64,000 nt of DNA from Devosia soli (GTDB lineage Bacteria; Pseudomonadota; Alphaproteobacteria; Rhizobiales; Devosiaceae): positions 124,001-188,000 of the forward strand of contig NZ_LAJG01000024.1 in NCBI RefSeq assembly GCF_000970455.1, read 5' to 3'. The notes beneath the pieces are model-generated. The model had not been told where the DNA came from. It ran no database searches and worked only from the letters and a program-made list of their open reading frames with translations. Of the stretch, positions 8,331 through 64,000 are shown in pieces. The position numbers and the translations under genes are program-made. Numbering within the stretch: position 1 is the stretch's first letter; every line of letters starts with the position of its first letter.

Positions 8331-9422
8331 TTACCAGGCAAAGGCGCTGCGGCGATGCAGCAGGATCCAGAGGAAGAACGGCCCACCGAAGGCTGCCGTG
8401 ACGATGCCGATCGGCAGTTCCGCCGGCGCAACCACGGTGCGGCTCAGGGCATCGCAAAAGAGCAAGAAGGTCGCGCCGAGGAGGGCGCTGGCGGGCAGCA
8501 GATAGCGATGATCCGGCCCGATCGCGAGCCGCAGAAGATGCGGCACGACGATGCCGACGAAACCAATGCCGCCGCTGACGGCGACGGAGGCGCCGGTCGC
8601 TGCAGCCACAGCGACAATGGTGATGCGCTTGAACCGCTGCACGGGCACGCCAAGATGGGACGCCGTCGCTTCGCCAAGCGTCATGGCATTGAGGCCCTTG
8701 GCGAGGAAACCGGCGAAGACCAGCGCTGCAAAAATGATCGGCCCGGCGGCAAGAACCTTGATCCAGGTGGCGCCGGCCAGCGACCCCATGCCCCAGAAAG
8801 TCAGGTCGCGGAGCTGGTTTTCGCTGGCGATATAGGTGAGCACACCGGAAAAAGCGCCGGCCAGCGCACCGATGGCGATGCCTGCAAGGAGCATGGTGGC
8901 GATCGCGGTCTGTCCGCCGCGCGTTGCGACGCGATAGAGGACGAAAGTGGTGACGAGCCCACCGCCAAAAGCTGCGGCCGGCAATGACCAGATGCCGAGC
9001 GCGGTCGTGAAGGGGGCCATTGCCGTGCCGCCGAGCACGATGATGACAACCGCCCCCAGTGCCGCGCCGCTCGACACGCCCACCAAGCCCGGATCGGCCA
9101 GCGGGTTGCGGAAAAGGCCCTGCATCAACAGGCCTGACACCGCCAAGCCCGCGCCGATGAGCACGCCGAGCACCATGCGCGGCAGGCGGATATTGACGAT
9201 GACGGCATAGTCGCGCAGCGCATCGGCTCCCTCGGACCCCGAGATCAGGGCACCGAGAAAATTGCCCAGCGAGGCGCCCGAGGCGCCCGTGGTCATGGAC
9301 AGGACCATGGCCGCAAGGAGCGCAAAGACCAGGGCGATGACGGTGATGCGGCCGATATGGCTGCGATCGCCGTCGGGCCGGGTCCGCGCGCCGCTTGCGG
9401 CAAGTGGCATGGTGCTGTCCAT
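8331..9422 (-). CDS. hmuU: Hemin ABC transporter permease (FecCD family)
   Basis: 363 residues, inner membrane, with the many hydrophobic segments of a FecCD/BtuC permease. Recognisable family stretches are NIRLPRMVLGVLIGAGLAVS, GLLMQGLFRNPLADPGLVGV and the ATPase-coupling region GFVGIVVPHLLRLAIGPDHR. It forms the channel through which hemin released by HmuT passes, driven by HmuV. It lies between hmuT (11 bp upstream) and hmuV (4 bp downstream). About 25 residues before the first membrane segment are polar and variable. Confidence 0.93.
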   Translation of the reverse strand: MDSTMPLAASGARTRPDGDRSHIGRITVIALVFALLAAMVLSMTTGASGASLGNFLGALISGSEGADALRDYAVIVNIRLPRMVLGVLIGAGLAVSGLLMQGLFRNPLADPGLVGVSSGAALGAVVIIVLGGTAMAPFTTALGIWSLPAAAFGGGLVTTFVLYRVATRGGQTAIATMLLAGIAIGALAGAFSGVLTYIASENQLRDLTFWGMGSLAGATWIKVLAAGPIIFAALVFAGFLAKGLNAMTLGEATASHLGVPVQRFKRITIVAVAAATGASVAVSGGIGFVGIVVPHLLRLAIGPDHRYLLPASALLGATFLLFCDALSRTVVAPAELPIGIVTAAFGGPFFLWILLHRRSAFAW

Positions 9423-9433
9423 GGCAAGACCCC

Positions 9434-10318
9434 TTAGTGCGCGGCGGGACCATAAAGATGGTCGGCAAGCTCGGTGGCTGCAGCCGCGGTGCGCGGACCG
9501 AAGCCGAGGAGATAGGCGCCATCCATGCGATAGATCGCCTTGTTCTGCCCCGCTGGGGTCAGGGCGATCGCCGGATGTTCGAGGAGTTCCGTTTCCGTCG
9601 CGCCATGGTCGCCACCGCGATCCATGAGGAGGATCGCGTCAGGCGCTGCGGCGGTGATGGCCTCCTCGGAGAGCGGGCGATAACCTTCATATTCGGTGAT
9701 GGCGTTTTCAGCGCCGGCCAGCGCGATGATGCCATTGGCCGCCGTGCCGGTGCCCGAAGCCTGGATCTGGCCGCCCTGATTGGAGAGGATGAACAGCACC
9801 TTCTTTGGTGTTTCCACCGCATCGGTGCGGGTCTTCAGCGCCGCAAATTCGCCCTCAAGCTTGGCCGCGAGCGCCTCGGCTTTGTCTTCAAGCCCCAGCG
9901 CATCGCCAACGGCCCGCACCTTTGTAAGAACGCCCTCAGCCGAATAGCCTTCCGGCACGGTCTGGTAGTCGACGCCGGCATGGGAGAGCACTTCGAGCGC
10001 CTCCGGCGGGCCGCTGCCTTCGATAACGAGCAAACCAGTCGGATTGACCGAAAGCACGCCTTCAGGCGCAAGAGCGCGCATATAGCCAACATCAGGCAGG
10101 CCCAAGGCCGCCTCGGGATAAAGCGCGGTCTGGTCGCGGGCGACCAGCGTGCCCTCGGCACCGAGCTCATAAATGATTTCGGTCAGCGAACCGCCGATCG
10201 ACACCAGGCGGCTCGCATCGGCAAACTTGTGCAGTTCCGCGGCCGAAAGCGGCGCCACGGAAAGCGAAGCTGCAATTAGCACCGCAGCAAAAGAGGTAAA
10301 AATGCGCATGGTTGACAA
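9434..10318 (-). CDS. hmuT: Periplasmic hemin-binding protein
   Basis: 294 residues with a signal peptide (MRIFTSFAAVLIAASLSVAP, cut near SAA-E). The rest is a class III periplasmic binding fold as in HmuT/ShuT: an N-lobe starting RLVSIGGSLTEIIYELGAEG, a long connecting helix, and a C-lobe. A candidate heme-ligand tyrosine is in DVGYMRAL. It hands hemin to HmuUV. It lies 3 bp after the hmuS stop. A start at MRIF, three residues later, is equally possible. Confidence 0.92.
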   Translation of the reverse strand: MSTMRIFTSFAAVLIAASLSVAPLSAAELHKFADASRLVSIGGSLTEIIYELGAEGTLVARDQTALYPEAALGLPDVGYMRALAPEGVLSVNPTGLLVIEGSGPPEALEVLSHAGVDYQTVPEGYSAEGVLTKVRAVGDALGLEDKAEALAAKLEGEFAALKTRTDAVETPKKVLFILSNQGGQIQASGTGTAANGIIALAGAENAITEYEGYRPLSEEAITAAAPDAILLMDRGGDHGATETELLEHPAIALTPAGQNKAIYRMDGAYLLGFGPRTAAAATELADHLYGPAAH

Positions 10319-10321
10319 ATC

Positions 10322-11389
10322 TCAGGCAGCGTTGGGGGTGGAGAACAGCGGCAATTGCTCGACGACGGCGCGCCATTCGTCGCGCTCCCCATGGCCTTCG
10401 TGGCGCTTGCCAAAGAACTGGATGATCAGTTCGCGGTTCGCGTCATAGAGCTCGACCGAGGTGACATGGCCATCCTTGGTGGGCTTGCGCACCGCCCAGG
10501 CCGCAACGACATGGTCAAGCCGCAGGTGGAGGTGGAAGGTTTCGTCCATCACGTTGAGCCATGGCCCCATGGGCGAGACCTTATGGATCGGCCCCGAGTG
10601 GATCTGGATGCAGCCTTCATTGCCGGCAAAGACCATGATCGGCAGGTCTGTGCCCGCCACCTTGCGGAACATGCCTTCGACGGCAGCATGATCGAGCTGC
10701 CACGCCAGATCCTCACCCACGGTTTCGAGCGCATCAAGCCGGGGATAGTTGAGCTTTTTCAAGAGCCCGAAGAACTGGTGCGTGTCCGTCATCGCTTCCC
10801 AGCCCGCGCGAAGCTCGGAGAGCGGCGCGGGCGCGGGCGCGGGCGCGGCTTCCGGCGCGGATTTCACATAGGGCGTGACCTCGAGCGTATCGACCTGTTC
10901 GTCGTGGCGCAGTTCGCCGACGAGCTTGGTCCAGGCCGCAATATCGGTTGCGGGGCGCGCATGCACCTTGTGGACCGCATTGCCCGCACGATCGAAAAAC
11001 TGCAGCGAGCGCTTGGTCGTGCCGTCTTCCATGGCTTTTTCCAAGGCATAGCCATGTACCCAGCGGCTCGGGAAAATGCGGAGGTCGATCTGCTCACCCA
11101 AGACGATCGAGGCATGGGCATTGACCGACACGCCTTCATAGACGCCGATCTTTTCGTGCACCGCGCTTTCATTGCGTGTAAGCGCCATGACTTCGCCAAC
11201 GCCTGTCAGGCCATGAAGCAGCGTTGACATCTCGACCTTGAGGCGCGTTGCCGTATGGCCGACTTCAGCGGCCACCAACTGCCCTTCGCTGATCGAATGA
11301 ATGCGCGCAAAATCGCGCTCGCGCATCTGTGGATTAAGTGCCCGCAGGCGGCGGATGTCTTCGGCGGTTTTGGATGTCGGTTCGGTCAC
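10322..11389 (-). CDS. hmuS: Hemin-degrading / hemin transport factor HmuS
   Basis: 355 residues, cytoplasmic, two tandem HemS/ChuX-like repeats, as expected (family about 340-360). The first repeat starts near residue 14 (RRLRALNPQMRERDFARIHS) and the second near 205 (RAGWEAMTDTHQFFGLLKKL); the second carries GNEGCIQIHSGPIHKVSPMG, a conserved HemS stretch. HemS-type proteins bind imported heme and, in several bacteria, degrade it to release iron. A short Ala/Pro linker joins the repeats. It lies between hemP (9 bp gap) and hmuT (3 bp gap). Confidence 0.93.
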   Translation of the reverse strand: MTEPTSKTAEDIRRLRALNPQMRERDFARIHSISEGQLVAAEVGHTATRLKVEMSTLLHGLTGVGEVMALTRNESAVHEKIGVYEGVSVNAHASIVLGEQIDLRIFPSRWVHGYALEKAMEDGTTKRSLQFFDRAGNAVHKVHARPATDIAAWTKLVGELRHDEQVDTLEVTPYVKSAPEAAPAPAPAPLSELRAGWEAMTDTHQFFGLLKKLNYPRLDALETVGEDLAWQLDHAAVEGMFRKVAGTDLPIMVFAGNEGCIQIHSGPIHKVSPMGPWLNVMDETFHLHLRLDHVVAAWAVRKPTKDGHVTSVELYDANRELIIQFFGKRHEGHGERDEWRAVVEQLPLFSTPNAA

Positions 11390-11398
11390 AGCGCGGGC

Positions 11399-11554
11399 CT
11401 ATTTGGTGAGAATGAGCTTGTCCTGCCGGGTGACGCGCAGCCGATAGATCATGCCCTTGTGCTCGATCTGCAGCTCGGATGCCCCATCCAGAATCTCGGC
11501 GCTCGAGACGATTTTGATGGGGGAAACAGCGGAATCGGAGCCACCTGGCGGCAT
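11399..11554 (-). CDS. hemP: Hemin uptake protein HemP
   Basis: A 51-residue gene, easily missed because of its size. The product starts MPPGGSDS and ends in the HemP signature: SSAEILDG, then IEHKGMIYRLRVTRQDKLIL followed by TK. HemP/HmuP proteins are small and required for expression of hemin receptor genes in Bradyrhizobium and Sinorhizobium, where they act as regulators. The gene heads the minus-strand hemin operon, with GGAT about 6 bp before ATG, and faces the receptor gene across 197 bp. The end coordinate comes from the TAG at 11399-11401. Confidence 0.88.
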   Translation of the reverse strand: MPPGGSDSAVSPIKIVSSAEILDGASELQIEHKGMIYRLRVTRQDKLILTK

Positions 11555-11581
11555 GATTTATCCAACAACTTCATCGCCTTA

Positions 11582-11602
11582 GAGCATTCAGCACGAATGC
11601 TC
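11582..11602. promoter_or_regulatory. Inverted repeat in hemP leader
   Basis: Arms GAGCATTC and GAATGCTC (8 bp) are separated by 5 bp. It lies 28 bp upstream of hemP, so it would sit in the hemP mRNA leader or at its promoter. It could be an iron-regulator site or an RNA hairpin. It does not match the RirA or Irr box well enough to name. Confidence 0.4.
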
Positions 11603-11619
11603 CGGCAAGAGAATTAAAC

Positions 11620-11648
11620 TTGACTCACATAGCCATATTAAATTATCG
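11620..11648 (+). promoter_or_regulatory. Candidate promoter of the hemin receptor gene
   Basis: TTGACT at 11620-11625 is a good -35 match; an AT-rich segment with a weak -10 (ATTATC) follows at 16 bp spacing. It would give a leader of about 100 bp. The call rests on the -35 box only. Confidence 0.3.
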
Positions 11649-11661
11649 ACGCAATAGGTGA

Positions 11662-11686
11662 TTGAAAGAGTCATGAATTCTTTCAA
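11662..11686. promoter_or_regulatory. Inverted repeat upstream of hemin receptor, candidate iron operator
   Basis: Arms TTGAAAGA and TCTTTCAA (8 bp, perfect) flank a 9 bp AT-rich spacer. It lies 66 bp upstream of the receptor ATG in the divergent hemin control region. Hemin loci of Rhizobiales are controlled by Irr, RirA or HmuP; this repeat is a candidate target, but no consensus match is claimed. Confidence 0.4.
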
Positions 11687-11751
11687 CCGGTCAGCCCGCC
11701 TCCCGCCAGCCAGCCGATCACAAAAAGACTTTTAAAAAACTGGAGACAGAC

Positions 11752-13905
11752 ATGGGGCTGGTCAGGTCACGCACGGCCGCGCTTTTGGGCGGCGTCGCGC
11801 TGGCGCTCGTCGCGCAGCAGGCGGCGCAGGCGCAGAACGTCAACGCAACGAATATCACTCTTCTCGAACGCCTGGTCATCGGTGCGGGGGCGCCGAAAGT
11901 TGCCATCAACACACCTCAGGCGGTGACGGTGCTCAATCAGGCCGATATCGACAAGGAACAGGCCGACACGACCGGTGCGCTCTTTGCCACCGTTCCCGGC
12001 GTTACCGTCGTCGGCAGCCAGCGCCAGTTCGGCGAGGCCTTCAATATCCGCGGCATCGGCACGACCGAAAACTCGTCGGACGGCTCGCGCGTCATCATCA
12101 ACATCGATGGCGCACCGAAATTCAACGAGCAGTACCGCATGGGCTCGTTCTTTTCCGATCCGGAACTTTACAAGCAGGTCGAAGTGCTGCGCGGCCCGGC
12201 CTCGTCCACCCTTTATGGCGCAGGCGCCATTGGTGGCGTCATCAACTTCACCACCAAGGATGCGTCGGACTTTCTGCAGGACGGCAATTCCGGCGCCCTG
12301 CGCGTCAAAACCTCGCTCGACACCAATGGCTTGGGCACATTGACCTCGGCGGTGCTGGCCCAGCAGGTTACCGACACATTCGAAATTCTCGCCGCCGGCA
12401 ATTGGCGCCGCCGCAACAATGTCGAGCTCGCCAAGGGTGGCGAACTCGCCGGCTCTGGCTTTGACACATTGTCCGGGCTCATCAAGGGCACGGCCCATTT
12501 CGGCGACAATAACGAGCAGGAACTCAGCCTCTCCTACCAGCGCTGGACCAGCGATGCGAAGGATCAGGCCTATGCCCAGACGGGCACCTCCTCGCTTTTC
12601 GGCGTCACCGATCGCGCGGTGCTCGACCAGACCGCGGTGCTGCATTGGGAAAACCCGGCGACCGACAATCCCTGGGTCGATCTCAAAGTCAATCTCAGCT
12701 ATTCGGACACCCAGAACGACCAGACCAATCACCGCTACGCCCTCGGGGCGCCGCGGACCGTGATCGGGCCGGTCAATCCGGCCTTCCCTCAGAATGTGAC
12801 GGCCGACAGCATCCTTCTCGATACGCGCTATGGCTACAAGACCTGGCAGCTCACTGCCGACAACACGATCGAATGGATCGGCGACGGGTTCGAAAACTAT
12901 CTGACTACCGGTTTTGCCGCCTCGACGCAGGATCGTTCCGTGGTTCGCCCGGGCACTGCAGCGCCGCTCCCAGCGCATCCGCAGGGTACCGAGAACAAGC
13001 TCGGCATCTTTGCCCAGAACGAATTCATCTGGGCCGAGAAGCTGACCCTCATCGCCGGGGCTCGTGGAGACTTCCACTGGGTCAATTCAACGACTGGCGC
13101 CGCCAATATCGAAGGCAGCGCCTTCTCCCCGAAGCTCGCCGCCCATTATGAACTAACCGACAATATCGGTGTCTTCGGCTCCATCGCCCATACCGAGCGT
13201 CTGCCGACCATCGACGAGCTCTATTCCGTCGCTGCAGCCTCACCGGGCCGGTCTGCACCAAAATCAACGAGCCTTGGCCTTCTCAAGGAAGAAGCCAATA
13301 CGATCGAAGCCGGCTTTTCGCTTTCGGGCAACGATCTACTGACGTCCGGCGACACCGCCGCGCTCAAGACCACGGCCTTTTATAGCGACCTGACCAATCT
13401 CATCGCGTCCAACACCGCCCGTCCATTCGGCGGCGCCACGGTTCCCTACTATGGCAATATCGGCAAGGCGCGCATTTATGGCGTCGAGGTCGAAGCCTCC
13501 TATGACGCGGAACTGCTCTATGCGAGCCTCGCCTATGGCATCACGGTGGGTGATAATCTCGTCAACAACACGCCGCTGACCACCGTGCCGCAAAACAATC
13601 TGGCGCTGACCCTGGGCATCCGCAATGTCGAACATGATCTCGACATGGGCGCCCGCCTGACCATTGCCGATCAGGGCCGCTACATCGTCGCCGCCGGTCC
13701 GTTCGGCGCCGATGGCCCGGCCGATGCCTATGCGACGGTCGACCTCTTCGCCTCGTGGAAACCCCAGACCGGCCCTCTCGCCGGCACCGAGTTGCAGCTT
13801 GGCATCGACAACCTCTTTAACGCCGATTACCGCCCGAACCTCTCGATTGATCGCTCTACCGGCCGCACTTTCAAGATTTCGGTCGCCAAGCAGTTCGACT
13901 GGTAA
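11752..13905 (+). CDS. hmuR: TonB-dependent hemin receptor
   Basis: 717 residues, outer membrane. A signal peptide covers about residues 1-25 (cut near AQA-QN). The plug domain follows: PQAVTVLNQADIDKEQADTT, the GEAFNIRGIGTTENSSDG segment and VEVLRGPASSTLYGAGAIGG. A 22-strand barrel ends with LQLGIDNLFNADYRPNLSID and a terminal aromatic residue. The hemin assignment comes from the divergent hemP-hmuSTUV operon and from a stretch HTERLPTIDELYS at the place of the FRAP box of heme receptors; the FRAP letters themselves are not kept. GGAGA lies about 7 bp before ATG. A strong hairpin terminator follows. Confidence 0.9.
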   Translation: MGLVRSRTAALLGGVALALVAQQAAQAQNVNATNITLLERLVIGAGAPKVAINTPQAVTVLNQADIDKEQADTTGALFATVPGVTVVGSQRQFGEAFNIRGIGTTENSSDGSRVIINIDGAPKFNEQYRMGSFFSDPELYKQVEVLRGPASSTLYGAGAIGGVINFTTKDASDFLQDGNSGALRVKTSLDTNGLGTLTSAVLAQQVTDTFEILAAGNWRRRNNVELAKGGELAGSGFDTLSGLIKGTAHFGDNNEQELSLSYQRWTSDAKDQAYAQTGTSSLFGVTDRAVLDQTAVLHWENPATDNPWVDLKVNLSYSDTQNDQTNHRYALGAPRTVIGPVNPAFPQNVTADSILLDTRYGYKTWQLTADNTIEWIGDGFENYLTTGFAASTQDRSVVRPGTAAPLPAHPQGTENKLGIFAQNEFIWAEKLTLIAGARGDFHWVNSTTGAANIEGSAFSPKLAAHYELTDNIGVFGSIAHTERLPTIDELYSVAAASPGRSAPKSTSLGLLKEEANTIEAGFSLSGNDLLTSGDTAALKTTAFYSDLTNLIASNTARPFGGATVPYYGNIGKARIYGVEVEASYDAELLYASLAYGITVGDNLVNNTPLTTVPQNNLALTLGIRNVEHDLDMGARLTIADQGRYIVAAGPFGADGPADAYATVDLFASWKPQTGPLAGTELQLGIDNLFNADYRPNLSIDRSTGRTFKISVAKQFDW

Positions 13906-54683: not shown

Positions 54684-55403
54684 CTATCCCTTCGCCTTCG
54701 GCGTCAGGCCGTGCAAGAAGAGCTGTTCGAGGTATCGTGCCGCATCTTCGAACCGCCCTTCCCCGCCGCGGCCCTTGCCCAAAATCGCCCGCACCTGCAC
54801 GTCGAAATCGGCATAGTGCTGGGTGGTGGCCCAGATCGAAAAGATCAGGTGATAGGGGTCGGTGCGGGAAATCTTGCCTTGGTCCATCCAGGCCATCAGC
54901 ACCTGGGCTTTCTCATCGACCAGTGCCTTCAGATCCACTTCCAGCATATCGATGATATGGGGGGCGCCGCGCAGCATTTCGTTGGCGAAAAGCCGGCTTT
55001 GGCGGGGGAAATCGCGCGCCATTTCGAGTTTTCGCCGGATATAGGAGCGGATTTCGACGAAGGGGTCGCCGTCGGCGCGCATTTCCTCGAGCGGGGCAAG
55101 CCAGGTGACGAGGAGTTCGGACATCAGGCGCCGGTGGATCTCTTCCTTTTTCGGGAAGTAATAGAGCAGGTTAGGTTTGCTCATGCCGGCCACTTCGGCG
55201 ATCTGGTCGATGGTGGCGCCGCGAAAGCCGTGGACGGAGAAAACTTCGAGCGCGGCCTCGAGAATGATGTCCTGCTTTTCCCGCTGAATGCGCGTTTGCG
55301 GACGCGGCTTTGCAGGGGCTGTGGCGACTTTGGCGTTCGCCTTGTGCTGGCGCTTCGCCTGGGTCTTCGAAGCCTCGACCGTTTTCACCTTTTTGGGCGC
55401 CAT
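54684..55403 (-). CDS. rutR: TetR-family regulator, RutR type
   Basis: 239 residues from ATG 55403; the frame before it lies in the control region. An N-terminal Lys/Ala-rich tail of about 35 residues precedes the helix-turn-helix: DIILEAALEVFSVHGFRGAT and DQIAEVAGMSKPNLLYYFPK. The C-terminal domain (TetR_C_6/YcdC) includes LMAWMDQGKISRTDPYHLIF and SIWATTQHYADFDVQVRAIL, as in E. coli RutR, which binds uracil and thymine. A near-perfect RutR operator lies 36 bp upstream, and pyrimidine degradation genes are divergent. Confidence 0.88.
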   Translation of the reverse strand: MAPKKVKTVEASKTQAKRQHKANAKVATAPAKPRPQTRIQREKQDIILEAALEVFSVHGFRGATIDQIAEVAGMSKPNLLYYFPKKEEIHRRLMSELLVTWLAPLEEMRADGDPFVEIRSYIRRKLEMARDFPRQSRLFANEMLRGAPHIIDMLEVDLKALVDEKAQVLMAWMDQGKISRTDPYHLIFSIWATTQHYADFDVQVRAILGKGRGGEGRFEDAARYLEQLFLHGLTPKAKG

Positions 55404-55438
55404 TTTCGTCTTGCGGGAATGAACAGGAGTGCTAACAT

Positions 55439-55454
55439 TTTTCCAACTGGTCAA
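55439..55454. promoter_or_regulatory. RutR-type operator
   Basis: TTTTCCAACTGGTCAA matches the E. coli RutR consensus TTGACCA-NN-TGGTCAA at 12 of 14 fixed positions; only two bases of the left half differ. It sits between the divergent rutR-like gene and the pyrimidine cluster, where it could control both. Confidence 0.7.
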
Positions 55455-55529
55455 AAATCTTGGTCGCATAAACGCTTCGTCTGCGCCAGCGCAAAATGAC
55501 CGGACAACATCCAAGGGAGCGCCTTCGCC

Positions 55530-56855
55530 GTGTCCACCTCAACCGTCGTGCCGAACGATCTCAGTGCGTTCTGGATGCCGTTTACGGCGAACCGGCAATT
55601 CAAGAAGGCGCCGCGCATGTTCGTCGCGGCCAAGGACATGCATTATACGACCTCGGACGGCCGGCAGGTGCTCGACGGCACGGCGGGACTGTGGTGCGTC
55701 AATGCCGGCCACGCGCGGCCGAAAATCGTCGAGGCGATCGCTAACCAGGCGGCCGAACTCGACTATGCGCCGGCCTTCCAGATGGGGCATCCCAAGGCGT
55801 TTGAACTCGCCAACCGCATCATCGACATCGCCCCCAAGGGGCTCGACCACGTACTTTTCACCAATTCCGGTTCGGAATCGGTGGAAACGGCGCTGAAAGT
55901 GGCGCTCGCCTATCAGAAGGTGAAGGGGCAAGGCTCACGCACCCGCCTGATCGGCCGCGAGCGCGGCTATCACGGGGTCAATTTCGGCGGCATTTCGGTG
56001 GGCGGGATCGTCACCAATCGCAAAATGTTCGGCACGCTGCTCACCGGCGTCGACCATATGCCCCATACCCATAACATCGCCAAAAACGCGTTCTCAAAGG
56101 GCCTGCCCCCGCATGGGGTCGATCTCGCCGACGAACTCGAGCGCATTGTTACCCTTCATGACGCCTCGACCATCGCGGCCGTGATCGTCGAGCCGGTGGC
56201 CGGATCGACCGGCGTGCTCATTCCGCCGCCGGGCTATCTCAAGCGCCTGCGCGAAATCACCAAGAAGCATGGCATTCTGCTGATTTTTGACGAAGTCATC
56301 ACCGGCTATGGACGCCTCGGGACGGCATTTGGCGCCGATTATTTCGACGTCGTGCCCGATATCATGGTGACGGCCAAGGGCCTGACCAATGGCGTCATCC
56401 CGATGGGTGCGGTGCTGGTTTCGGCCGAGATCCACGATGCCTTCATGGATGGGCCGGAACACGTCATCGAATTTTTCCACGGCTACACCTATTCGGGCAA
56501 TCCTGTGGCCTCGGCGGCGGGCCTTGCGGCCCTTGCCACCTATAAGGAAGAAGGGCTTTTCGAACGCGGCGCGGCGCTGGCGCCCAAATGGGAAGAGGCG
56601 CTGCACAGCTTGAAGGGCCTGCCGCATGTGATCGACATCCGCAATATCGGCATGGTGGGCGCCATCGAACTGCAGCCGATTGACGGGCAGCCGACCAAGC
56701 GGGCATTTTCGGCCTTCCTCAAGGCGTTCGAGCAGGGGCTACTGATCCGCACAACGGGCGATATCATCGCGCTGTCGCCGCCGCTGATCATTTCGGAAAG
56801 CCAGATCGACGAGATCGTCACCAAGCTTGGCGGCATCCTCAAAACGCTTGAGTGA
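55530..56855 (+). CDS. Beta-alanine (omega-amino acid)--pyruvate aminotransferase
   Basis: 441 residues, class III PLP aminotransferase. GTG 55530 follows AAGGGAG at 9 bp. Motifs: MPFTANRQFKKAPRMFVAAK at the start, SGSESVETALKVALAYQKVK, the PLP aspartate in LLIFDEVITGYGRLGTAFGA, and the Schiff-base lysine in DIMVTAKGLTNGVIPMGAVL. This family moves the amino group of beta-alanine or 3-aminoisobutyrate to pyruvate. It comes first in the cluster after the RutR-type operator and so handles the end products of uracil and thymine breakdown. Confidence 0.9.
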   Translation: MSTSTVVPNDLSAFWMPFTANRQFKKAPRMFVAAKDMHYTTSDGRQVLDGTAGLWCVNAGHARPKIVEAIANQAAELDYAPAFQMGHPKAFELANRIIDIAPKGLDHVLFTNSGSESVETALKVALAYQKVKGQGSRTRLIGRERGYHGVNFGGISVGGIVTNRKMFGTLLTGVDHMPHTHNIAKNAFSKGLPPHGVDLADELERIVTLHDASTIAAVIVEPVAGSTGVLIPPPGYLKRLREITKKHGILLIFDEVITGYGRLGTAFGADYFDVVPDIMVTAKGLTNGVIPMGAVLVSAEIHDAFMDGPEHVIEFFHGYTYSGNPVASAAGLAALATYKEEGLFERGAALAPKWEEALHSLKGLPHVIDIRNIGMVGAIELQPIDGQPTKRAFSAFLKAFEQGLLIRTTGDIIALSPPLIISESQIDEIVTKLGGILKTLE

Positions 56856-56915: not shown

Positions 56916-58412
56916 ATGCAGATCATCGAGAATGCCGTAGGCGGCAAGCGCTACACATCGACTTCGACGCGGCGCGTTCCGGTCTTCAATCCGGCAACCG
57001 GCGAGCAGAGCGCAGAGCTGCCGCTGTCGACGCTGAGCGAACTGAACGAGGCCGTGGCTTCAGCCAAGAAGGCGCAGGTGGCCTGGGGCAACACGCCGCC
57101 AATGAAGCGGGCGCGCGTCATGTTCAAGTTCAAGGCGCTGCTCGATCAATATGCCGACGATCTCGCCCGCGAGATTTCCAAGGAACACGGCAAGGTGCAT
57201 GACGATGCCTTGGGAGAAGTGGCGCGCGGCATCGATTGCGTCGACTTTGCCTGCGGCATTCCGCATCTCCTCAAGGGCGAATTTTCGCGCAATGTCGGGC
57301 CCTCGATCGACTCTTATTCCGATCGTCAGCCGCTCGGCGTCGTCGCCGGCATTACCCCGTTCAACTTCCCGGCCATGGTGCCGATGTGGATGTATCCGGC
57401 CGCGATCGCTTGCGGCAATGCGTTTATCCTCAAGCCATCCGAGCGCGACCCGTCTGCGCCCATGCTGGCCTGGAACCTCTTTATGGAAGCCGGGCTCCCC
57501 GAAGGCATTCTCAACGTCGTTCATGGCGACAAGGAAATGGTCGACGGGATCTTAGATCACCCCGACATTAAGGCCGTCAGCTTCGTCGGGTCGACGCCGA
57601 TTGCGGAATATGTCTACCAGCGCGGGACGCAGGCGGGTAAGCGCGTGCAGGCGCTCGGCGGCGCCAAGAACCACATGATCATCATGCCCGATGCCGATCT
57701 CGACCAGGCGGCCGACGCGCTGATGGGCGCGGGCTATGGCTCGGCCGGCGAGCGCTGCATGGCGATTTCGGTGGCGGTGCCGGTAGGCAAGGCGACGGCG
57801 GATGCGCTGGTCGCAAAACTCAAGCCGCGCGTCGAAAGCCTCAAGATCGGTCCGGCGACCGACAAGGACGCGGAAATGGGTCCGGTGGTCACCAAGATGC
57901 ACCGGGACAAGATTCTTGGTTACATTGATTCCGGTGTCGAACAGGGCGCCTCGCTCGTCGTCGACGGCCGCGGGTTCAAGCTGCAGGGCTATGAGAACGG
58001 CTACTATGTGGGGGGTACGCTCTTCGACAATGTCGAGCCGGAGATGAAGATCTATAAGGAAGAGATCTTTGGGCCCGTGCTTTCCGTCGTACGCCGCGAC
58101 AGTTTCAAGGACGCGGTCGACCTGATCCACGGGCATGAATATGCCAATGGCACGGCGATCTTTACCCGCGACGGCGATGCGGCGCGGGAATTTGCCGACA
58201 AGATTGAAGTTGGGATGGTGGGCATCAACGTGCCGATCCCGGTGCCGGTGGCGTATCACAGCTTTGGCGGCTGGAAGCGGAGCCTTTTTGGCGACCATTC
58301 GATCTATGGGCCCGAAGGCATCCACTTCTATACGCGGCTCAAAACCGTCACCACCCGCTGGCCAGCCGGCATCAAGGGCGGGGCGGAGTTCACCTTCCCG
58401 AGCTTGAAGTAA
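56916..58412 (+). CDS. mmsA: CoA-acylating methylmalonate-semialdehyde dehydrogenase
   Basis: 498 residues, ALDH6 family. Start ATG follows GGGAGG. Catalytic Cys is in GSAGERCMAISVAVPVG. The general-base glutamate of other ALDHs is absent at VQALGGAKNHMIIMPDADLD, as is usual in ALDH6. Other parts: GVVAGITPFNFPAMVPMWMY and the C-terminal WKRSLFGDHSIYGPEGIHFY. It converts malonate semialdehyde (from beta-alanine) and methylmalonate semialdehyde (from 3-aminoisobutyrate) to acetyl- and propionyl-CoA. It directly follows the aminotransferase. Confidence 0.94.
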   Translation: MQIIENAVGGKRYTSTSTRRVPVFNPATGEQSAELPLSTLSELNEAVASAKKAQVAWGNTPPMKRARVMFKFKALLDQYADDLAREISKEHGKVHDDALGEVARGIDCVDFACGIPHLLKGEFSRNVGPSIDSYSDRQPLGVVAGITPFNFPAMVPMWMYPAAIACGNAFILKPSERDPSAPMLAWNLFMEAGLPEGILNVVHGDKEMVDGILDHPDIKAVSFVGSTPIAEYVYQRGTQAGKRVQALGGAKNHMIIMPDADLDQAADALMGAGYGSAGERCMAISVAVPVGKATADALVAKLKPRVESLKIGPATDKDAEMGPVVTKMHRDKILGYIDSGVEQGASLVVDGRGFKLQGYENGYYVGGTLFDNVEPEMKIYKEEIFGPVLSVVRRDSFKDAVDLIHGHEYANGTAIFTRDGDAAREFADKIEVGMVGINVPIPVPVAYHSFGGWKRSLFGDHSIYGPEGIHFYTRLKTVTTRWPAGIKGGAEFTFPSLK

Positions 58413-58483: not shown

Positions 58484-59734
58484 ATGACCTCTCCCGGCGA
58501 AAACCTTCGGATTAACGGCGACCGGCTCTGGGAGAGCTTGATGGACATGGCCAAGATCGGGCCGGGGATCGCGGGCGGTAACAACCGGCAGACGCTGACC
58601 GATAGCGACAAGGAAGGGCGCGAACTGTTCCAGCGCTGGTGCGAAGATGCGGGGCTCAGCATGGGCGTCGATAAGATGGGCACCATGTTCATGACGCGCG
58701 CCGGGACGGACCCGGATGCGCTGCCTGTTTATATCGGCTCGCACCTCGATACGCAGCCGACAGGCGGCAAGTATGATGGCGTGCTGGGGGTTCTGGCTGG
58801 ACTCGAAGTCGTGCGCTCGATGAATGACCTGGGGATCAAGACCAGGCACCCGATCGTCGTCACCAATTGGACCAATGAGGAAGGCGCGCGGTTTGCGCCG
58901 GCCATGCTCGCTTCCGGCGTCTTCGCGGGCGTCCACACCATGGACTATGCGTACAACCGCAAGGACATGGACGGAAAGCTCTTCGGCGATGAGCTCAAAC
59001 GCATCGGCTGGGTGGGCGAGGAAGAAGTGGGCGCGCGCAAAATGCACGCCTATTTCGAATATCACATCGAGCAGGGGCCGATCCTTGAGGCCGAAAAGAA
59101 GCAGATCGGCGTCGTCACCCATTGCCAGGGGCTGTGGTGGCTTGAATTCACGCTGACCGGCAAGGAGGCGCATACCGGCTCGACGCCGATGACCATGCGC
59201 GTCAATGCCGGGCTCGCCATGGCGCGCATCATGGAAATGGTGCAGGCCGTGGCGATGGGCGAGCAGCCGGGTGCAGTGGCGGGCGTGGGCCAGGTGAAGT
59301 TCTCGCCCAATTCGCGGAATGTGTTGCCGGGAACGGCGGTGTTCACGGTGGATATGCGCACGCCGAGCCAGGAAAAGCTCGATCGCATGCGCGCGACGAT
59401 CGAGGCCAAGGCCGCCGAGATTTGTTCCGAGCTCGGGGTCGGGTGTTCCGTGGAAGCCGTGGGACACTTTGACCCGGTGACCTTTGATCCGACGCTGGTC
59501 GGCCGCGTGCGCTCAGCGGCGGAGAAGCTGGGGTATTCGCACATGAACATCATTTCCGGCGCCGGGCACGATGCCTGCTGGGCGGCGAAGGTCGCGCCAT
59601 CGACCATGATCATGTGCCCCTGCGTCGGCGGCTTGAGCCACAACGAGGCGGAAGAGATTTCAATGGAATGGGCGGCAGCGGGCTGCGACGTGCTGTTCCA
59701 TGCCGTGGTGGAGACGGCGGAGATCGTCGAATAA
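58484..59734 (+). CDS. Zn-dependent N-carbamoyl-amidohydrolase (beta-ureidopropionase type, HyuC/AmaB family)
   Basis: 416 residues, M20-type metal hydrolase. Metal ligands: GSHLDTQPTGGKYDGVLGVL (HxD and D), NWTNEEGARFAPAM (EE), the YHIEQGPILE histidine and a final histidine in ISGAGHDACWAAKVAPSTMI. The lid domain has ETHTG-like GKEAHTGSTPMTMRVNAGLA. This family splits N-carbamoyl-beta-alanine or N-carbamoyl-amino acids to ammonia, CO2 and the amino acid, the third step of reductive pyrimidine breakdown. It lies directly before dihydropyrimidinase. No strong ribosome-binding site is visible. Confidence 0.9.
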   Translation: MTSPGENLRINGDRLWESLMDMAKIGPGIAGGNNRQTLTDSDKEGRELFQRWCEDAGLSMGVDKMGTMFMTRAGTDPDALPVYIGSHLDTQPTGGKYDGVLGVLAGLEVVRSMNDLGIKTRHPIVVTNWTNEEGARFAPAMLASGVFAGVHTMDYAYNRKDMDGKLFGDELKRIGWVGEEEVGARKMHAYFEYHIEQGPILEAEKKQIGVVTHCQGLWWLEFTLTGKEAHTGSTPMTMRVNAGLAMARIMEMVQAVAMGEQPGAVAGVGQVKFSPNSRNVLPGTAVFTVDMRTPSQEKLDRMRATIEAKAAEICSELGVGCSVEAVGHFDPVTFDPTLVGRVRSAAEKLGYSHMNIISGAGHDACWAAKVAPSTMIMCPCVGGLSHNEAEEISMEWAAAGCDVLFHAVVETAEIVE

Positions 59735-59805
59735 CGAAACAACAGACCTGCCGAAAGCGCTGAGGGGTGCGCGGCGGGTCTTCAAGACTGCAAGGGAACG
59801 AAGAT

Positions 59806-61257
59806 ATGAGCAAGGTTATCAAGGGCGGGACGGTCGTTACGGCCGACTTGAGCTATGTCGCCGACGTCAAGATCGAGGGCGACGTCATCGTCGAGATCGG
59901 GCAGAACCTGTCGGGCGATGAGATTCTGGATGCGACCGGTTGCTACGTCATGCCCGGCGGCATCGATCCGCATACCCATCTCGAAATGCCCTTCATGGGG
60001 ACCTATTCCGCCGACGATTTTGAGAGCGGCTCGCGCGCCGGCCTTGCCGGGGGCACGACGATGGTCGTCGATTTCTGCCTGCCCAATCCGGATCAGAGCC
60101 TTCTTGAGGCGCTCAAGATGTGGGACAACAAGACCGGCAAGGCGAGCGCGGATTATTCGTTCCATATGGCGATCACCTGGTGGGGCGAGCAGGTGTTCAA
60201 TGAGATGGCCGAGGTGGTCGATCGCGGCATTACCTCGTTCAAGCATTTCATGGCCTATAAGGGCTCGCTGATGGTCAACGACGACGAGATGTTCGCTTCG
60301 TTCCAGCGCTGCGCGGCGCTCGGCGCACTGCCCCTCGTCCATGCCGAAAATGGCGATGTGGTTGCGGCGATGACCGCGAAGCTTCTCGCCGAAGGCAATA
60401 ATGGGCCGGAGGGTCACGCCTATTCCCGCCCGCCGGAAGTGGAAGGCGAAGCGACCAATCGCGCCATCATGATCGCCGATATGGCCGGCGTGCCGCTTTA
60501 TGTGGTGCACGTCTCCTGCGAACAGGCGCATGAAGCCATCCGCCGGGCGCGTCAGAAGGGGATGCGCGTTTATGGCGAACCGCTGGTGCAGCATCTCACC
60601 CTCGATGAGACCGAATACTTTAATGCCGACTGGGATCATGCGGCGCGGCGCGTGATGTCGCCGCCGTTCAGGAACAAGGCGCATCAGGATTCGCTCTGGG
60701 CCGGGCTACAGGCGGGGTCGCTCTCCTGCGTCGCGACGGACCATTGCGCCTTCACCACCGCGCAAAAGCGGAACGGGGTCGGCAATTTTGCGAAAATCCC
60801 CAATGGGACGGGCGGACTCGAGGATCGTCTGCCGGTGCTCTGGACGGCTGGGGTCAATACCGGGCGGCTGACGCCGAACGAGTTCGTGGCGGTGACGTCG
60901 ACCAACATCGCCAAGATTTTGAACATGTACCCGAAAAAGGGTGCGGTGATGGTCGGGGCGGATGCGGACCTCATCGTCTGGGACCCGAAGCGCAAGAAGA
61001 CCATTACGGCGAAAAGCCAGCAATCGGTCATCGACTACAACGTGTTCGAAGGTTTTGAGGTGACGGGGATGCCGCGCTTCGTGTTGAGCCGGGGCAAGGT
61101 GTCCATCATCGAGAACGAGGTGAAGGCCGAGCCTGGCCACGGCAAGTTCGTGGCGCGCGAAGCCAAGAACCCGGTGAACCGGGCGCTGAGCCAATGGAAG
61201 GAGATCGTTGCGCCACGAAAAGTGGAGCGTGCGGGCATTCCGGCGACGGGCGTTTGA
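59806..61257 (+). CDS. hydA: Dihydropyrimidinase / D-hydantoinase
   Basis: 483 residues from ATG 59806 (AAGGGAA upstream); an earlier start at 59767 only adds a basic tail. Metal site: HTH in MPGGIDPHTHLEMPFMGTYS, carboxylated lysine in SFKHFMAYKGSLMVND, histidines in PLVHAENGDVVAAM and YVVHVSCEQAHEA, and aspartate in CVATDHCAFTT. It opens dihydrouracil or dihydrothymine (and hydantoins) to the N-carbamoyl acid. The amidohydrolase, aminotransferase and mmsA upstream complete the route. The first-step dehydrogenase PreTA is not in the window. Confidence 0.94.
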   Translation: MSKVIKGGTVVTADLSYVADVKIEGDVIVEIGQNLSGDEILDATGCYVMPGGIDPHTHLEMPFMGTYSADDFESGSRAGLAGGTTMVVDFCLPNPDQSLLEALKMWDNKTGKASADYSFHMAITWWGEQVFNEMAEVVDRGITSFKHFMAYKGSLMVNDDEMFASFQRCAALGALPLVHAENGDVVAAMTAKLLAEGNNGPEGHAYSRPPEVEGEATNRAIMIADMAGVPLYVVHVSCEQAHEAIRRARQKGMRVYGEPLVQHLTLDETEYFNADWDHAARRVMSPPFRNKAHQDSLWAGLQAGSLSCVATDHCAFTTAQKRNGVGNFAKIPNGTGGLEDRLPVLWTAGVNTGRLTPNEFVAVTSTNIAKILNMYPKKGAVMVGADADLIVWDPKRKKTITAKSQQSVIDYNVFEGFEVTGMPRFVLSRGKVSIIENEVKAEPGHGKFVAREAKNPVNRALSQWKEIVAPRKVERAGIPATGV

Positions 61258-61394: not shown

Positions 61395-62222
61395 TTGTCC
61401 GTCACGACCACCACATCAACGACAGGCACGGGTGCTGCACTCGCTGTCGTCCAGGCCCAAAACCTCGGCCTCACTTTTCCCACCGCCGATGGCGATGTCG
61501 TTGCTTTGTCCGACGTCAACCTGACCATCGAAAAGGGTGACTTCGTTTCATTCATCGGGCCGTCGGGCTGTGGCAAGACGACGTTTTTGCGCACCATTGC
61601 CGATCTCGAACAGCCGACCTCGGGCACGCTGCGCATCAACGGCCAGACGCCGGAAAACGCACGAAAAGACCGGGCCTATGGCTATGTGTTCCAGGCACCA
61701 GCACTCTATCCCTGGCGGACGATCGAGAAGAACGTGGCGCTGCCGCTCGAAATCATGGGGCATTCGCAGGCCCAGCAGACCGAGCGGATCAAGCGGACGC
61801 TCGATCTCGTCAATCTTTCCGGGTTCGAAAAGAAATATCCCTGGCAGCTTTCGGGCGGCATGCAGCAGCGAGCCTCCATTGCGCGCGCCTTGGCTTTCGA
61901 TGCCGATCTCCTGCTTATGGATGAGCCCTTCGGGGCGCTCGACGAAATCGTGCGCGACCATCTCAATTCTGAGCTGCTGAAGCTCTGGGACAGGACCAAA
62001 AAAACGATCTGCTTTGTGACGCATTCGATTCCCGAGGCGGTGTATCTCTCGACCAAGATCGTCGTCATGTCGCCGCGGCCGGGGCGGGTGACGGATGTCA
62101 TCGAGAGCAATCTGCCGCGCGAGCGACCGCTCGATATTCGCGAGACGCCGGAGTTTCTGGCGATAGCGGCGCGGGTCAGGGATGGTTTGAGGGCCGGGCA
62201 TAGTTATGAGGAGGTGGTGTGA
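61395..62222 (+). CDS. ABC transporter ATP-binding protein (SsuB/TauB/NrtD-like)
   Basis: 275 residues, TTG start at 61395, AGAAAGG about 8 bp upstream. Walker A GPSGCGKTT, signature LSGGMQQRASIARALAFDAD, Walker B LLLMDEPFGALDEIVRDHLN and H-loop CFVTHSIPEAVYLSTKIVVM. The family imports sulfonates, nitrate, thiamine precursors or pyrimidines. Position right after dihydropyrimidinase suggests uptake of a pyrimidine or hydantoin; this is inference. Confidence 0.9.
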   Translation: MSVTTTTSTTGTGAALAVVQAQNLGLTFPTADGDVVALSDVNLTIEKGDFVSFIGPSGCGKTTFLRTIADLEQPTSGTLRINGQTPENARKDRAYGYVFQAPALYPWRTIEKNVALPLEIMGHSQAQQTERIKRTLDLVNLSGFEKKYPWQLSGGMQQRASIARALAFDADLLLMDEPFGALDEIVRDHLNSELLKLWDRTKKTICFVTHSIPEAVYLSTKIVVMSPRPGRVTDVIESNLPRERPLDIRETPEFLAIAARVRDGLRAGHSYEEVV

Positions 62223-62367: not shown

Positions 62368-63234
62368 GTGAACCGCATCCTCCCAATCCTCACCATTCTT
62401 CTCGCCATCCTCGCCTTCTGGTATGCCGCTGCCATCTGGATGAATGCGCCGTGGCAGAACACGCTCAATGGTCGCGCAGACCTGACGGACGTGCCCTTCC
62501 TGACCTTCGCCCAGCAGACCTGGGGTCAGGACAAGCCGGTTTTGCCGGCGCCGCACCAGGTGTTTGCGGAAATCTGGAATGCGACGATGGGGCTCGAGTT
62601 TACCTCGCGCCGATCCTTGGCGCTTCATGCCTGGATCACGTTGTCGGCGACGCTTTTGGGCTTTGTGTTCGGGACGGCGCTTGGCGTGGGTCTGGCCGTC
62701 GCCATCATTCACAATGATGCTTCCGACCGGTCGCTGATGCCCTGGATCATTGCGAGCCAGACCATTCCTATTTTGGCGGTGGCGCCGATGGTGGTGGTGG
62801 GGCTTGGGGCCGTCGGAGTGACGGGGCTGGTGCCCAAGGCGCTGATTTCGATGTATCTGTCGTTCTTTCCGGTCGTCGTCGGCATGGTCAAGGGCTTGCG
62901 CTCACCCGAGCGCATTCAGCTCGATCTGATGCGGACTTATGACGCCAATCCCTGGCAGGTCTTTTGGAAGCTGCGCTGGCCCTCCGCCCTGCCCTTTCTT
63001 TTTGCCTCGATGAAGGTCGGCATCGCGATTTCGCTGATCGGGGCGGTGGTGGCCGAGCTCTCCAATGCCGCCGGGGGTGGCCTCGGGGTCCGGCTGCTCA
63101 CGGGCTCCTACAATGGCCAGACAGTGCAGATCTGGGCAGCGCTCTTTATCGCAGCGGGCCTGGCAGCGGTGCTGGTGGCGATCGTCGGGATGGCCGAGCG
63201 CGCGGTCAATGCGCCCAATGGGGTGCGGGCATGA
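62368..63234 (+). CDS. ABC transporter permease (SsuC/TauC-like)
   Basis: 288 residues, GTG start at 62368 directly after the palindrome pair; no clear ribosome-binding site beyond the G-rich repeat tail. Six membrane segments; the EAA loop region is GLRSPERIQLDLMRTYDANP with QVFWKLRWPSALPFLFASMK, and GGLGVRLLTGSYNGQTVQIW near the end. It overlaps the next permease gene by 4 bp (ATGA), so the importer probably uses a heterodimeric channel. Confidence 0.9.
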   Translation: MNRILPILTILLAILAFWYAAAIWMNAPWQNTLNGRADLTDVPFLTFAQQTWGQDKPVLPAPHQVFAEIWNATMGLEFTSRRSLALHAWITLSATLLGFVFGTALGVGLAVAIIHNDASDRSLMPWIIASQTIPILAVAPMVVVGLGAVGVTGLVPKALISMYLSFFPVVVGMVKGLRSPERIQLDLMRTYDANPWQVFWKLRWPSALPFLFASMKVGIAISLIGAVVAELSNAAGGGLGVRLLTGSYNGQTVQIWAALFIAAGLAAVLVAIVGMAERAVNAPNGVRA

Positions 63235-64000
63235 TTTTTCGGCATCGCATCCTTGCCACTCTGGGGACGCTGTCTGCGCTGCTGGCTATCGTAACGCCAG
63301 AGGTGGTGCTGGCGGACGGCGCGGCTGCTCCGGCTGGGCGCCTCCTCCTGTTGCCCATCATTGGCCTTGTTCTCGCTGGCGGAATCGGGCTTTTGACCCG
63401 CTGGACGCTGTGGCAGCCGCTGGTCAGCCTGGTGCTGCTCTTTGGTTCGGCGCTCATGCTGCCCGGCGCGGTGGCTGGCTTTGCCGGGGCTATTGGCGGG
63501 CCGGCTTACTGGCAGAGCCTTATCGCATTCTGGCTGCTGACCTGGAATTTTGCCGAGCGGCTTTCGGCGGCCATTCGCGATGGGCGATTGCCCGAGACGG
63601 GTACAGGCGTCATCATTCCCATTACCTTCGGGCTGACGCTGCTGATCCTCTGGGAAGCGATTACACGCGGCGCCAATGTGCCACCCGTGTTGCTTCCCGC
63701 CCCGTCGGCGATCGGGACACAATTGGCCAATTCGGCGCCGATCCTCTGGGCCGATTTCGTCCAGACTTTTATCAAGTCGGTCATTCCCGGCTACGTCATC
63801 GGCTGCCTTGCCGGGCTGGTCGTTGCCATAGCCGTTGATCGCTCGCCCTTCCTGAAAGCCGGGCTCCTGCCGATCGGCAATTTCATGTCGGCGCTGCCGA
63901 TCATCGGCATCGCGCCCATCATGGTCATGTGGTTCGGCTTTGATTGGCAGAGCAAAGCCGCCGTCGTCGTCGCGATGACGTTTTTCCCCATGCTGGTCAA
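63231..64000 (+). CDS. Second ABC transporter permease with N-terminal membrane extension (partial)
   Basis: 256 codons are visible; the end is beyond the window. The start ATG shares ATGA with the first permease stop. The first 110 or so residues form about four extra membrane segments (RILATLGTLSALLAIV, LLLLPIIGLVLAGGIGLLTR, LVSLVLLFGSALMLPGAVAG, LIAFWLLTWNFAERLSAAIR), and only then does the usual BPD permease domain begin (GVIIPITFGLTLLILWEAIT, KSVIPGYVIGCLAGLVVAIA, and MSALPIIGIAPIMVMWFGFD). The extension is longer than in SsuC-type permeases. A binding protein is expected downstream. Confidence 0.85.
   Translation, partial: MIFRHRILATLGTLSALLAIVTPEVVLADGAAAPAGRLLLLPIIGLVLAGGIGLLTRWTLWQPLVSLVLLFGSALMLPGAVAGFAGAIGGPAYWQSLIAFWLLTWNFAERLSAAIRDGRLPETGTGVIIPITFGLTLLILWEAITRGANVPPVLLPAPSAIGTQLANSAPILWADFVQTFIKSVIPGYVIGCLAGLVVAIAVDRSPFLKAGLLPIGNFMSALPIIGIAPIMVMWFGFDWQSKAAVVVAMTFFPMLV

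Follow-up and report, generated by a model that had tools for sequence, protein, structure and literature searches.

The locus at the end of this stretch of Devosia DNA (64 kb, called the window below) raises two questions. Does a RutR-like protein, acting through a RutR-type operator, control the reductive-type pyrimidine genes that lie next to it, and what would such a switch sense in a genome in which the first enzyme of the pathway is not found?

Genes of the locus

The regulator gene is divergent to a series of enzyme and transporter genes, which we treat as an operon (bit scores are given with the family cut-offs):

54684-55403, minus strand: RutR-like regulator of the TetR family, 239 aa, with TetR_N and TetR_C_3 domains; RutR is the closest family and equivalents of the uracil contacts are present
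55530-56855, plus strand: aptA, AptA-type omega-aminotransferase with a probable beta-alanine:pyruvate role (NF052567, 755.6 bits, cut-off 500)
56916-58412, plus strand: mmsA, CoA-acylating methylmalonate-semialdehyde dehydrogenase (TIGR01722, 713.9 bits, cut-off 448.5)
58484-59734, plus strand: M20-family amidohydrolase, here called hyuC (NF006769, 696.2 bits, cut-off 452; TIGR01879, 381.7 bits, cut-off 204; Peptidase_M20)
59767-61257, plus strand: dihydropyrimidinase (TIGR02033, 599.2 bits, cut-off 393.25)
61395-62222, plus strand: ABC transporter ATPase (best match a taurine-type ATPase, 219.8 bits; all 25 families listed are under their cut-offs)
62368-63234, plus strand: ABC transporter permease 1 (weak matches, all under cut-off)
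63231-64000, plus strand: ABC transporter permease 2, running past the window end

Judged by its context, the hyuC product would be a beta-ureidopropionase. The dihydropyrimidinase start is taken at the first GTG of the open reading frame; the true start may instead be an internal ATG 39 bases downstream. A gene for an NMT1/THI5-like binding protein follows permease 2, outside the window.

An earlier note on this DNA had placed a RutR-like gene beside the operator, and the closest named families of the protein are indeed those of RutR. The best is TIGR03613 (236.1 bits, E 3e-70, under the equivalog cut-off of 368) and NF011584/PRK15008 reaches 215.8 bits (under the cut-off of 230); the next family after the RutR ones stands at 44 bits. 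Because both RutR equivalog cut-offs are missed, we name the protein RutR-like rather than RutR. TetR_N (50.4 bits) and TetR_C_3, the YcdC-type C-terminal domain (167.7 bits), are both over their gathering scores, and the best-matching solved chains (6z1b; 3loc, 4jyk and 4xk4; 4x1e) are all named RutR. It is the most RutR-like protein of this genome (236 bits, against 57 for the next), and a relative is found at E 1e-30 in 129 of the 136 genomes of the family.

In E. coli RutR, uracil is described as being contacted by W77, W167 and Q171, by Y97 through a water molecule and by Q179' from the second monomer (PMC10891134). The window protein has all five equivalents: W101, Y121, W191, Q195 and Q203. 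The regulator gene was compared in 76 of the 129 genomes that have a relative, and the equivalents of Y97, W167, Q171 and Q179' are invariant among them; that of W77 is kept in 75, the only exception being an R in G061, a genome with frame-broken genes. All five contacts are retained in 47 of 47 genomes without preTA, the genes of the uracil-reducing first step, and in 28 of 29 that bear it. As a control, invariance was counted across 140 ligand-domain positions and found at 37, so that the kept contacts support uracil sensing and do not prove it.

The operator and its promoter-like neighbourhood

Three elements are predicted in the 126 bases that separate the start codon of the RutR-like gene (55403, minus strand) from that of aptA (55530):

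55410-55415, plus strand: putative -35 box of an aptA promoter (CTTGCG); CTTG is conserved in an ungapped stack of 39 upstream regions
55432-55437, plus strand: putative -10 box of the same promoter (CTAACA), within a conserved TGcTAaca block
55439-55454, plus strand: predicted RutR/PydR-type operator TTTTCCAACTGGTCAA, conserved upstream of aptA and paired with a preT operator in preTA-bearing relatives

The candidate operator matches 12 of the 14 fixed positions of TTGACCANNTGGTCAA, the symmetric E. coli sequence used for scoring, which we take to be the RutR consensus. This score is reached at two places in the window, 26360 and 55439. In the whole genome (4.14 Mb) 48 places lie within two mismatches of the palindrome, and at up to three mismatches it has 369 forward matches against 139 for a reversed control, the palindrome being over-represented genome-wide in general. 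A single match somewhere in 64 kb is therefore weak evidence. A score of 12/14 arising by chance within the regulator-aptA gap is unlikely: in first-order Markov samples of 330-base aptA upstream regions, at least 12 matches were reached in 0.1% and at least 11 in 1.5%.

CTTGCG and CTAACA are separated by 16 bases, and a single base separates CTAACA from the operator. The alphaproteobacterial promoter consensus is CTTGAC-CTATAT, and the arrangement looks like such a promoter with a repressor site over the start point; promoter activity is a likely reading of these boxes.

Conservation of an asymmetric motif

The RutR-type operator that had been read upstream of aptA in this one genome recurs in such regions of its relatives. 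A score of at least 11/14 is found in 39 of 39 aptA upstream regions from 39 genomes and 13 genera (11 in 7, 12 in 31 and 13 in 1), 21 of the 39 coming from the window's genus. In the window's genus, all of the 30 best loci, with that of this genome among them, carry a 12/14 site, which is identical in 28 (the exceptions are L035 and L038), an identity that partly reflects the shared ancestry of close relatives. When the 39 regions are stacked without gaps, the flanks have diverged and the CTTG box, the TGcTAaca box and the operator are kept. Conservation of the site across genera is decisive against a chance match.

The aptA-side sites, and the preT-side sites described below, point to one asymmetric pattern, TTTWYCAANTGGTCAA. 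To judge from these sites, the motif of this family is asymmetric, about TTTWYCAANTGGTCAA, and is not the symmetric E. coli consensus. The exact pattern occurs in 111 of the 136 family genomes, against two matches in total for the reversed control pattern. The 25 genomes with no exact copy include all 13 of one genus (g15), since the sites there read TTTTCCAATCGGTCAA or near it, with one or two changes each in the five examined.

Copy number was compared with the presence of preTA. In the window's genus, two exact copies are found in 12 of the 13 preTA-bearing genomes (the broken copy of G061 counted) and one in the other, G048, whose aptA site is TTTTCCATATGGTCAA; the 62 preTA-less genomes have one copy in 56, two in 2 and none in 4, and all four of the last group are also without the regulator. 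The other genera comprise 48 preTA-bearing genomes, with at least two exact copies in 33, one in 6 and none in 9, and 13 preTA-less genomes, with one copy in 1 and none in 12. Both exact copies of G113 lie elsewhere in its genome, and the single exact match of G059 is inside a coding frame taken for a transporter, its aptA site being the variant TTATCCAGATGGTCAA. The second exact sites of the two preTA-less genomes of the genus were set aside: that of G066 is the same site on overlapping contig ends, and that of G025 lies where cydB and a YbaK-type gene converge, between their 3' ends.

A scan of this genome for the motif, as the earlier note had suggested, recovers the TTTTCCAACTGGTCAA site as the sole exact copy of TTTWYCAANTGGTCAA and supports no wider regulon. 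Allowing two mismatches gives 9 matches on the forward and 10 on the reverse strand, against 6 and 4 for the reversed control; in view of this and of the single exact site, at 55439, a genome-wide regulon was dropped.

The missing first step and its operator

Compared with the PreTA/dihydropyrimidinase/beta-ureidopropionase pathway, the locus has the second-step enzyme, a candidate third-step enzyme, the aminotransferase and the semialdehyde dehydrogenase; the first step, PreTA, is missing. In this genome, which is 99.95% complete, the best match to PreA scores 41.5 bits against a cut-off of 335, and the protein concerned, encoded on contig C30, belongs to the quinone-dependent dihydroorotate dehydrogenases (473 bits, cut-off 366). 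The window and the stretch just beyond it hold no match to PreT or PreA better than E 0.66 and no preTA remnant. The pathway thus lacks its uracil-reducing step, and the genes could start only from dihydropyrimidines or later intermediates. The idea of a reductive pathway under a RutR-type site therefore holds in part: a conserved operator does precede reductive-type genes, but with PreA missing the pathway is incomplete. As a caution for annotation, uracil breakdown should not be concluded from finding genes of the dihydropyrimidinase and beta-ureidopropionase types.

PreA is over its cut-off in 60 of the 136 family genomes: 48 of 61 in other genera and 12 of 75 in the window's genus (13 with the pieces of G061), where 63 genomes are thus without PreA over cut-off, one of them (G061) only through a fragmented copy; some genomes are 55-85% complete, and some of these absences may be gaps. 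On a tree of regulator and AptA from 76 genomes, the preTA label needs at least nine changes, six of them forced by well supported branches; this quick gene tree, made with no bootstrap, implies that preTA has changed repeatedly in the family. G075 and G076 lack preTA, and their sister genomes G043 and G083 bear it. In G076 about 0.56 kb stands in place of the 3.55 kb that carries preTA with its operator in G083. Several enzyme genes of G061 (locus L117) and G011 (L119) appear as adjacent BLAST pieces, probably through sequencing frameshifts.

For the preT side, 23 preTA-bearing genomes were fetched. In 20 of them preTA is in the same stretch as the regulator (convergent, adjoining or up to about 7 kb off); it is farther off on the same contig in G001 and G103 and on another contig in G131. 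The motif is present at 10/14 or better in 22 of 22 preT upstream regions (12 in 18, 11 in 3 and 10 in 1). Markov samples for this side reach 12 in 0.45%, at least 11 in 2.2% and at least 10 in 13.5%, and the lowest-scoring region (10/14), taken alone, is no better than chance. The site is usually TTGACCAATTGATAAA, its opposite strand reading TTTATCAATTGGTCAA. It overlaps a TTGATA box, which is followed by a largely conserved ctgcgcTAgc; at preT as at aptA, then, the operator adjoins or overlaps promoter-like boxes.

For the regulator and the four enzyme genes, dN/dS is 0.02-0.19 over six genome pairs, and 0.03-0.13 in the three pairs that are preTA-less, every one of which includes this genome; from the latter values the operon appears to be in use without preTA. 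The sensor, the operator and the lower enzymes are under purifying selection despite the repeated change in preTA.

A model for control of the operon, and its alternatives

At a probability of roughly 0.8, we propose that a local RutR-like repressor acts on the aptA operon and probably on its own gene, and is released by a pyrimidine. The protein would sit on the asymmetric palindrome immediately after the aptA -10 box, blocking transcription of aptA, mmsA, hyuC and the dihydropyrimidinase and ABC transporter genes; its own gene, divergent and with its start codon 35 bases away, would probably be shut as well. Release would be by a pyrimidine base, most likely uracil, since the pocket residues are kept. 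Such control of reductive pyrimidine breakdown would be of the PydR type and would resemble that of Pseudomonas and Rhizobiales. In preTA-bearing relatives the same operator would serve preT too, and in this genome, where preTA and its operator are gone, the regulon would consist of one operon. Its substrates would be dihydrouracil, dihydrothymine, hydantoins related to these or carbamoyl-beta-amino acids, either taken up or derived from turnover, and its end products ammonia and semialdehydes or acyl-CoA.

The site, its conservation, its promoter-like neighbourhood, the pocket residues and the absence of preTA are read from sequence; from them we infer binding, repression, inducer and substrates. 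On the same footing the operator is, as far as its conservation can tell, real and functional-looking.

A wider interpretation, which we put forward tentatively and at somewhat less than even odds, is that of a 'headless' pyrimidine regulon. The uracil-reducing enzymes would have been lost repeatedly in Devosia, and the uracil-type sensor, the operator and the dihydropyrimidine-degrading operon would have been kept functional, with uracil or dihydrouracil signalling to a pathway fed by dihydropyrimidines. If this is true, the dihydropyrimidines may come, for example, from tRNA dihydrouridine turnover or be released by other organisms. With the first step alone repeatedly absent and the sensor kept, these genomes offer a natural experiment on the ligand sensed and on the substrates of the lower enzymes.

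It is odd that a cell unable to reduce uracil should conserve a uracil pocket, and the true inducer in a preTA-less cell may for that reason be other than uracil. Hence a possible, though doubtful, alternative, in which regulator and operator are as described but preTA-less Devosia have changed inducer, to dihydrouracil, dihydrothymine or some other compound of ring or carbamoyl type. It would fit the lack of PreA here and in most of the genus, which leaves uracil no longer a substrate of the operon, and the purifying selection on an operon without preTA; the five uracil contacts, unchanged in all 47 preTA-less genomes examined, argue against it.

Alternatively, a non-homologous or unrecognised enzyme may stand in for PreTA, so that the pathway is complete and starts from uracil. 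Such a substitute would account for the retained uracil-type sensor and make the repeated loss of preTA easier to understand. We consider it improbable, because the one exact operator copy in the genome would place the substitute outside the regulon as defined here, and the strongest PreA relative is the dihydroorotate dehydrogenase mentioned above. The Rut genes are likewise poor candidates. Three tandem RutA-like genes over the family cut-off do lie at C44:540372-543764 (locus L057, about 8333-11890), and their neighbours include an isochorismatase with a RutB score of 40.6 bits (cut-off 378) and a RutF-like reductase (147 bits against a cut-off of 255). The surroundings showed no canonical rut operon, and these genes have no exact TTTWYCAANTGGTCAA operator. 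RutA is over cut-off in only 4 of the 136 family genomes, the three besides this one having three to four copies in tandem each; RutB is over cut-off in none of the 136, with weaker matches (E 1e-30) in 36 and none in this genome. A replacement of PreTA by Rut genes was rejected on these two counts. ABC transporter genes also lie near the RutA-like genes, with an ATPase closest to PotA (322 bits, under cut-off).

The lower pathway might instead be kept for the supply of beta-alanine to pantothenate, a role reported for amaB, the beta-alanine synthase gene of Rhizobium etli (PMC7142369). In keeping with this, PanD is over cut-off in none of the 136 family genomes (one weaker match, in G017, has 75 bits against 106). 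PanC is found in 59 of the 136 genomes; it was not found in this one, which thus seems not to make pantothenate by that route, and without PreTA the source of dihydrouracil would be unexplained. As a reason for retention of the operon in this genome, where neither PanD nor PanC was found, beta-alanine supply was rejected, and the chance that it applies at all is slight. Least probable by far is that the motif is a chance match or the site of another regulator: the many near matches in the genome and the general excess of the palindrome would allow for it, but the site is kept at one and the same place in the promoter from genus to genus and has a twin at preT, which strongly disfavours it, and chance was rejected on the count of 39 in 39 aptA regions together with TTTWYCAANTGGTCAA in 111 of 136 genomes against two control matches.

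Relation to known systems

The proposed repressor resembles PydR of Pseudomonas putida, a RutR-like repressor of the reductive pyrimidine pathway (Hidese et al., 2012, J Biochem 152:341, as cited in PMC7332683), in that a RutR-like protein is found at reductive pyrimidine genes. By the title of that paper, the PydR target is the gene for dihydropyrimidine dehydrogenase; here that gene is absent, and the target would be the aminotransferase/dihydropyrimidinase operon. With E. coli RutR, the system shares the domains, the five uracil-contact residues, a divergent gene across an operator-bearing gap and a related 16-base palindrome, the rutA-rutR gap of E. coli holding TGGACTAAACGGTCAA (11/14). 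E. coli RutR controls the rutA-G operon, whereas here no rut operon is attached and the operator is the asymmetric TTTWYCAANTGGTCAA; in the helix-turn-helix region, the window protein has P where E. coli RutR has T53. For pyrimidine catabolism, a published reconstruction of RutR regulons covers 68 genomes from 13 groups and describes taxon-specific substitutions in the motif (Leyn et al., 2016, PMC5343134).

Among named genomes, the best 80 loci of a scan were examined; the closest of these are in Devosia and the others in Mesorhizobium, Rhizobium and relatives. PreA is present in the fetched stretch in 61 of the 80. Within Devosia, the stretch around the cluster is without preTA in, for example, Devosia crocina and D. 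subaequoris, and holds it in D. nitrariae and Devosia sp. LC5. Among the 63 loci with AptA, a site with at most two mismatches precedes aptA in 58 (13 of them exact) and is lacking in five. The site precedes preT in 55 of the 59 loci with PreT, and the amidohydrolase gene in 16 of the 17 without AptA. Among these best 80 loci, a RutR-like switch before reductive-type genes is ordinary in Rhizobiales. The earlier note had inferred that this sensor and site were joined here to the reductive pathway; this is no novelty, since PydR is published and the arrangement is usual among these loci; a RutR-like repressor on reductive-type genes is, on the sequence evidence, well supported and already known in kind. 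For Rhizobiales, the operator supplies a clear motif of pyrimidine control that can be carried over to other genomes. Less ordinary is that the sensor has been kept where the first enzyme is absent; the top-ranking results of a literature search contained nothing on a RutR-like regulator in Devosia or on preTA loss there, which is a weak negative.

Related palindromes occur at other places in this genome. A perfect TTGACCAAATGGTCAA palindrome at C17:24305-24320 (locus L015, about 4306) lies about 1.8 kb before a frame for a DppB-like peptide transporter permease (under the DppB cut-off). RutR-like palindromes are also found just past the cydB 3' end, both here, at C37:54973-54988 (L017), and in G025, at C1:1143667 (L199); these are perhaps part of a terminator.
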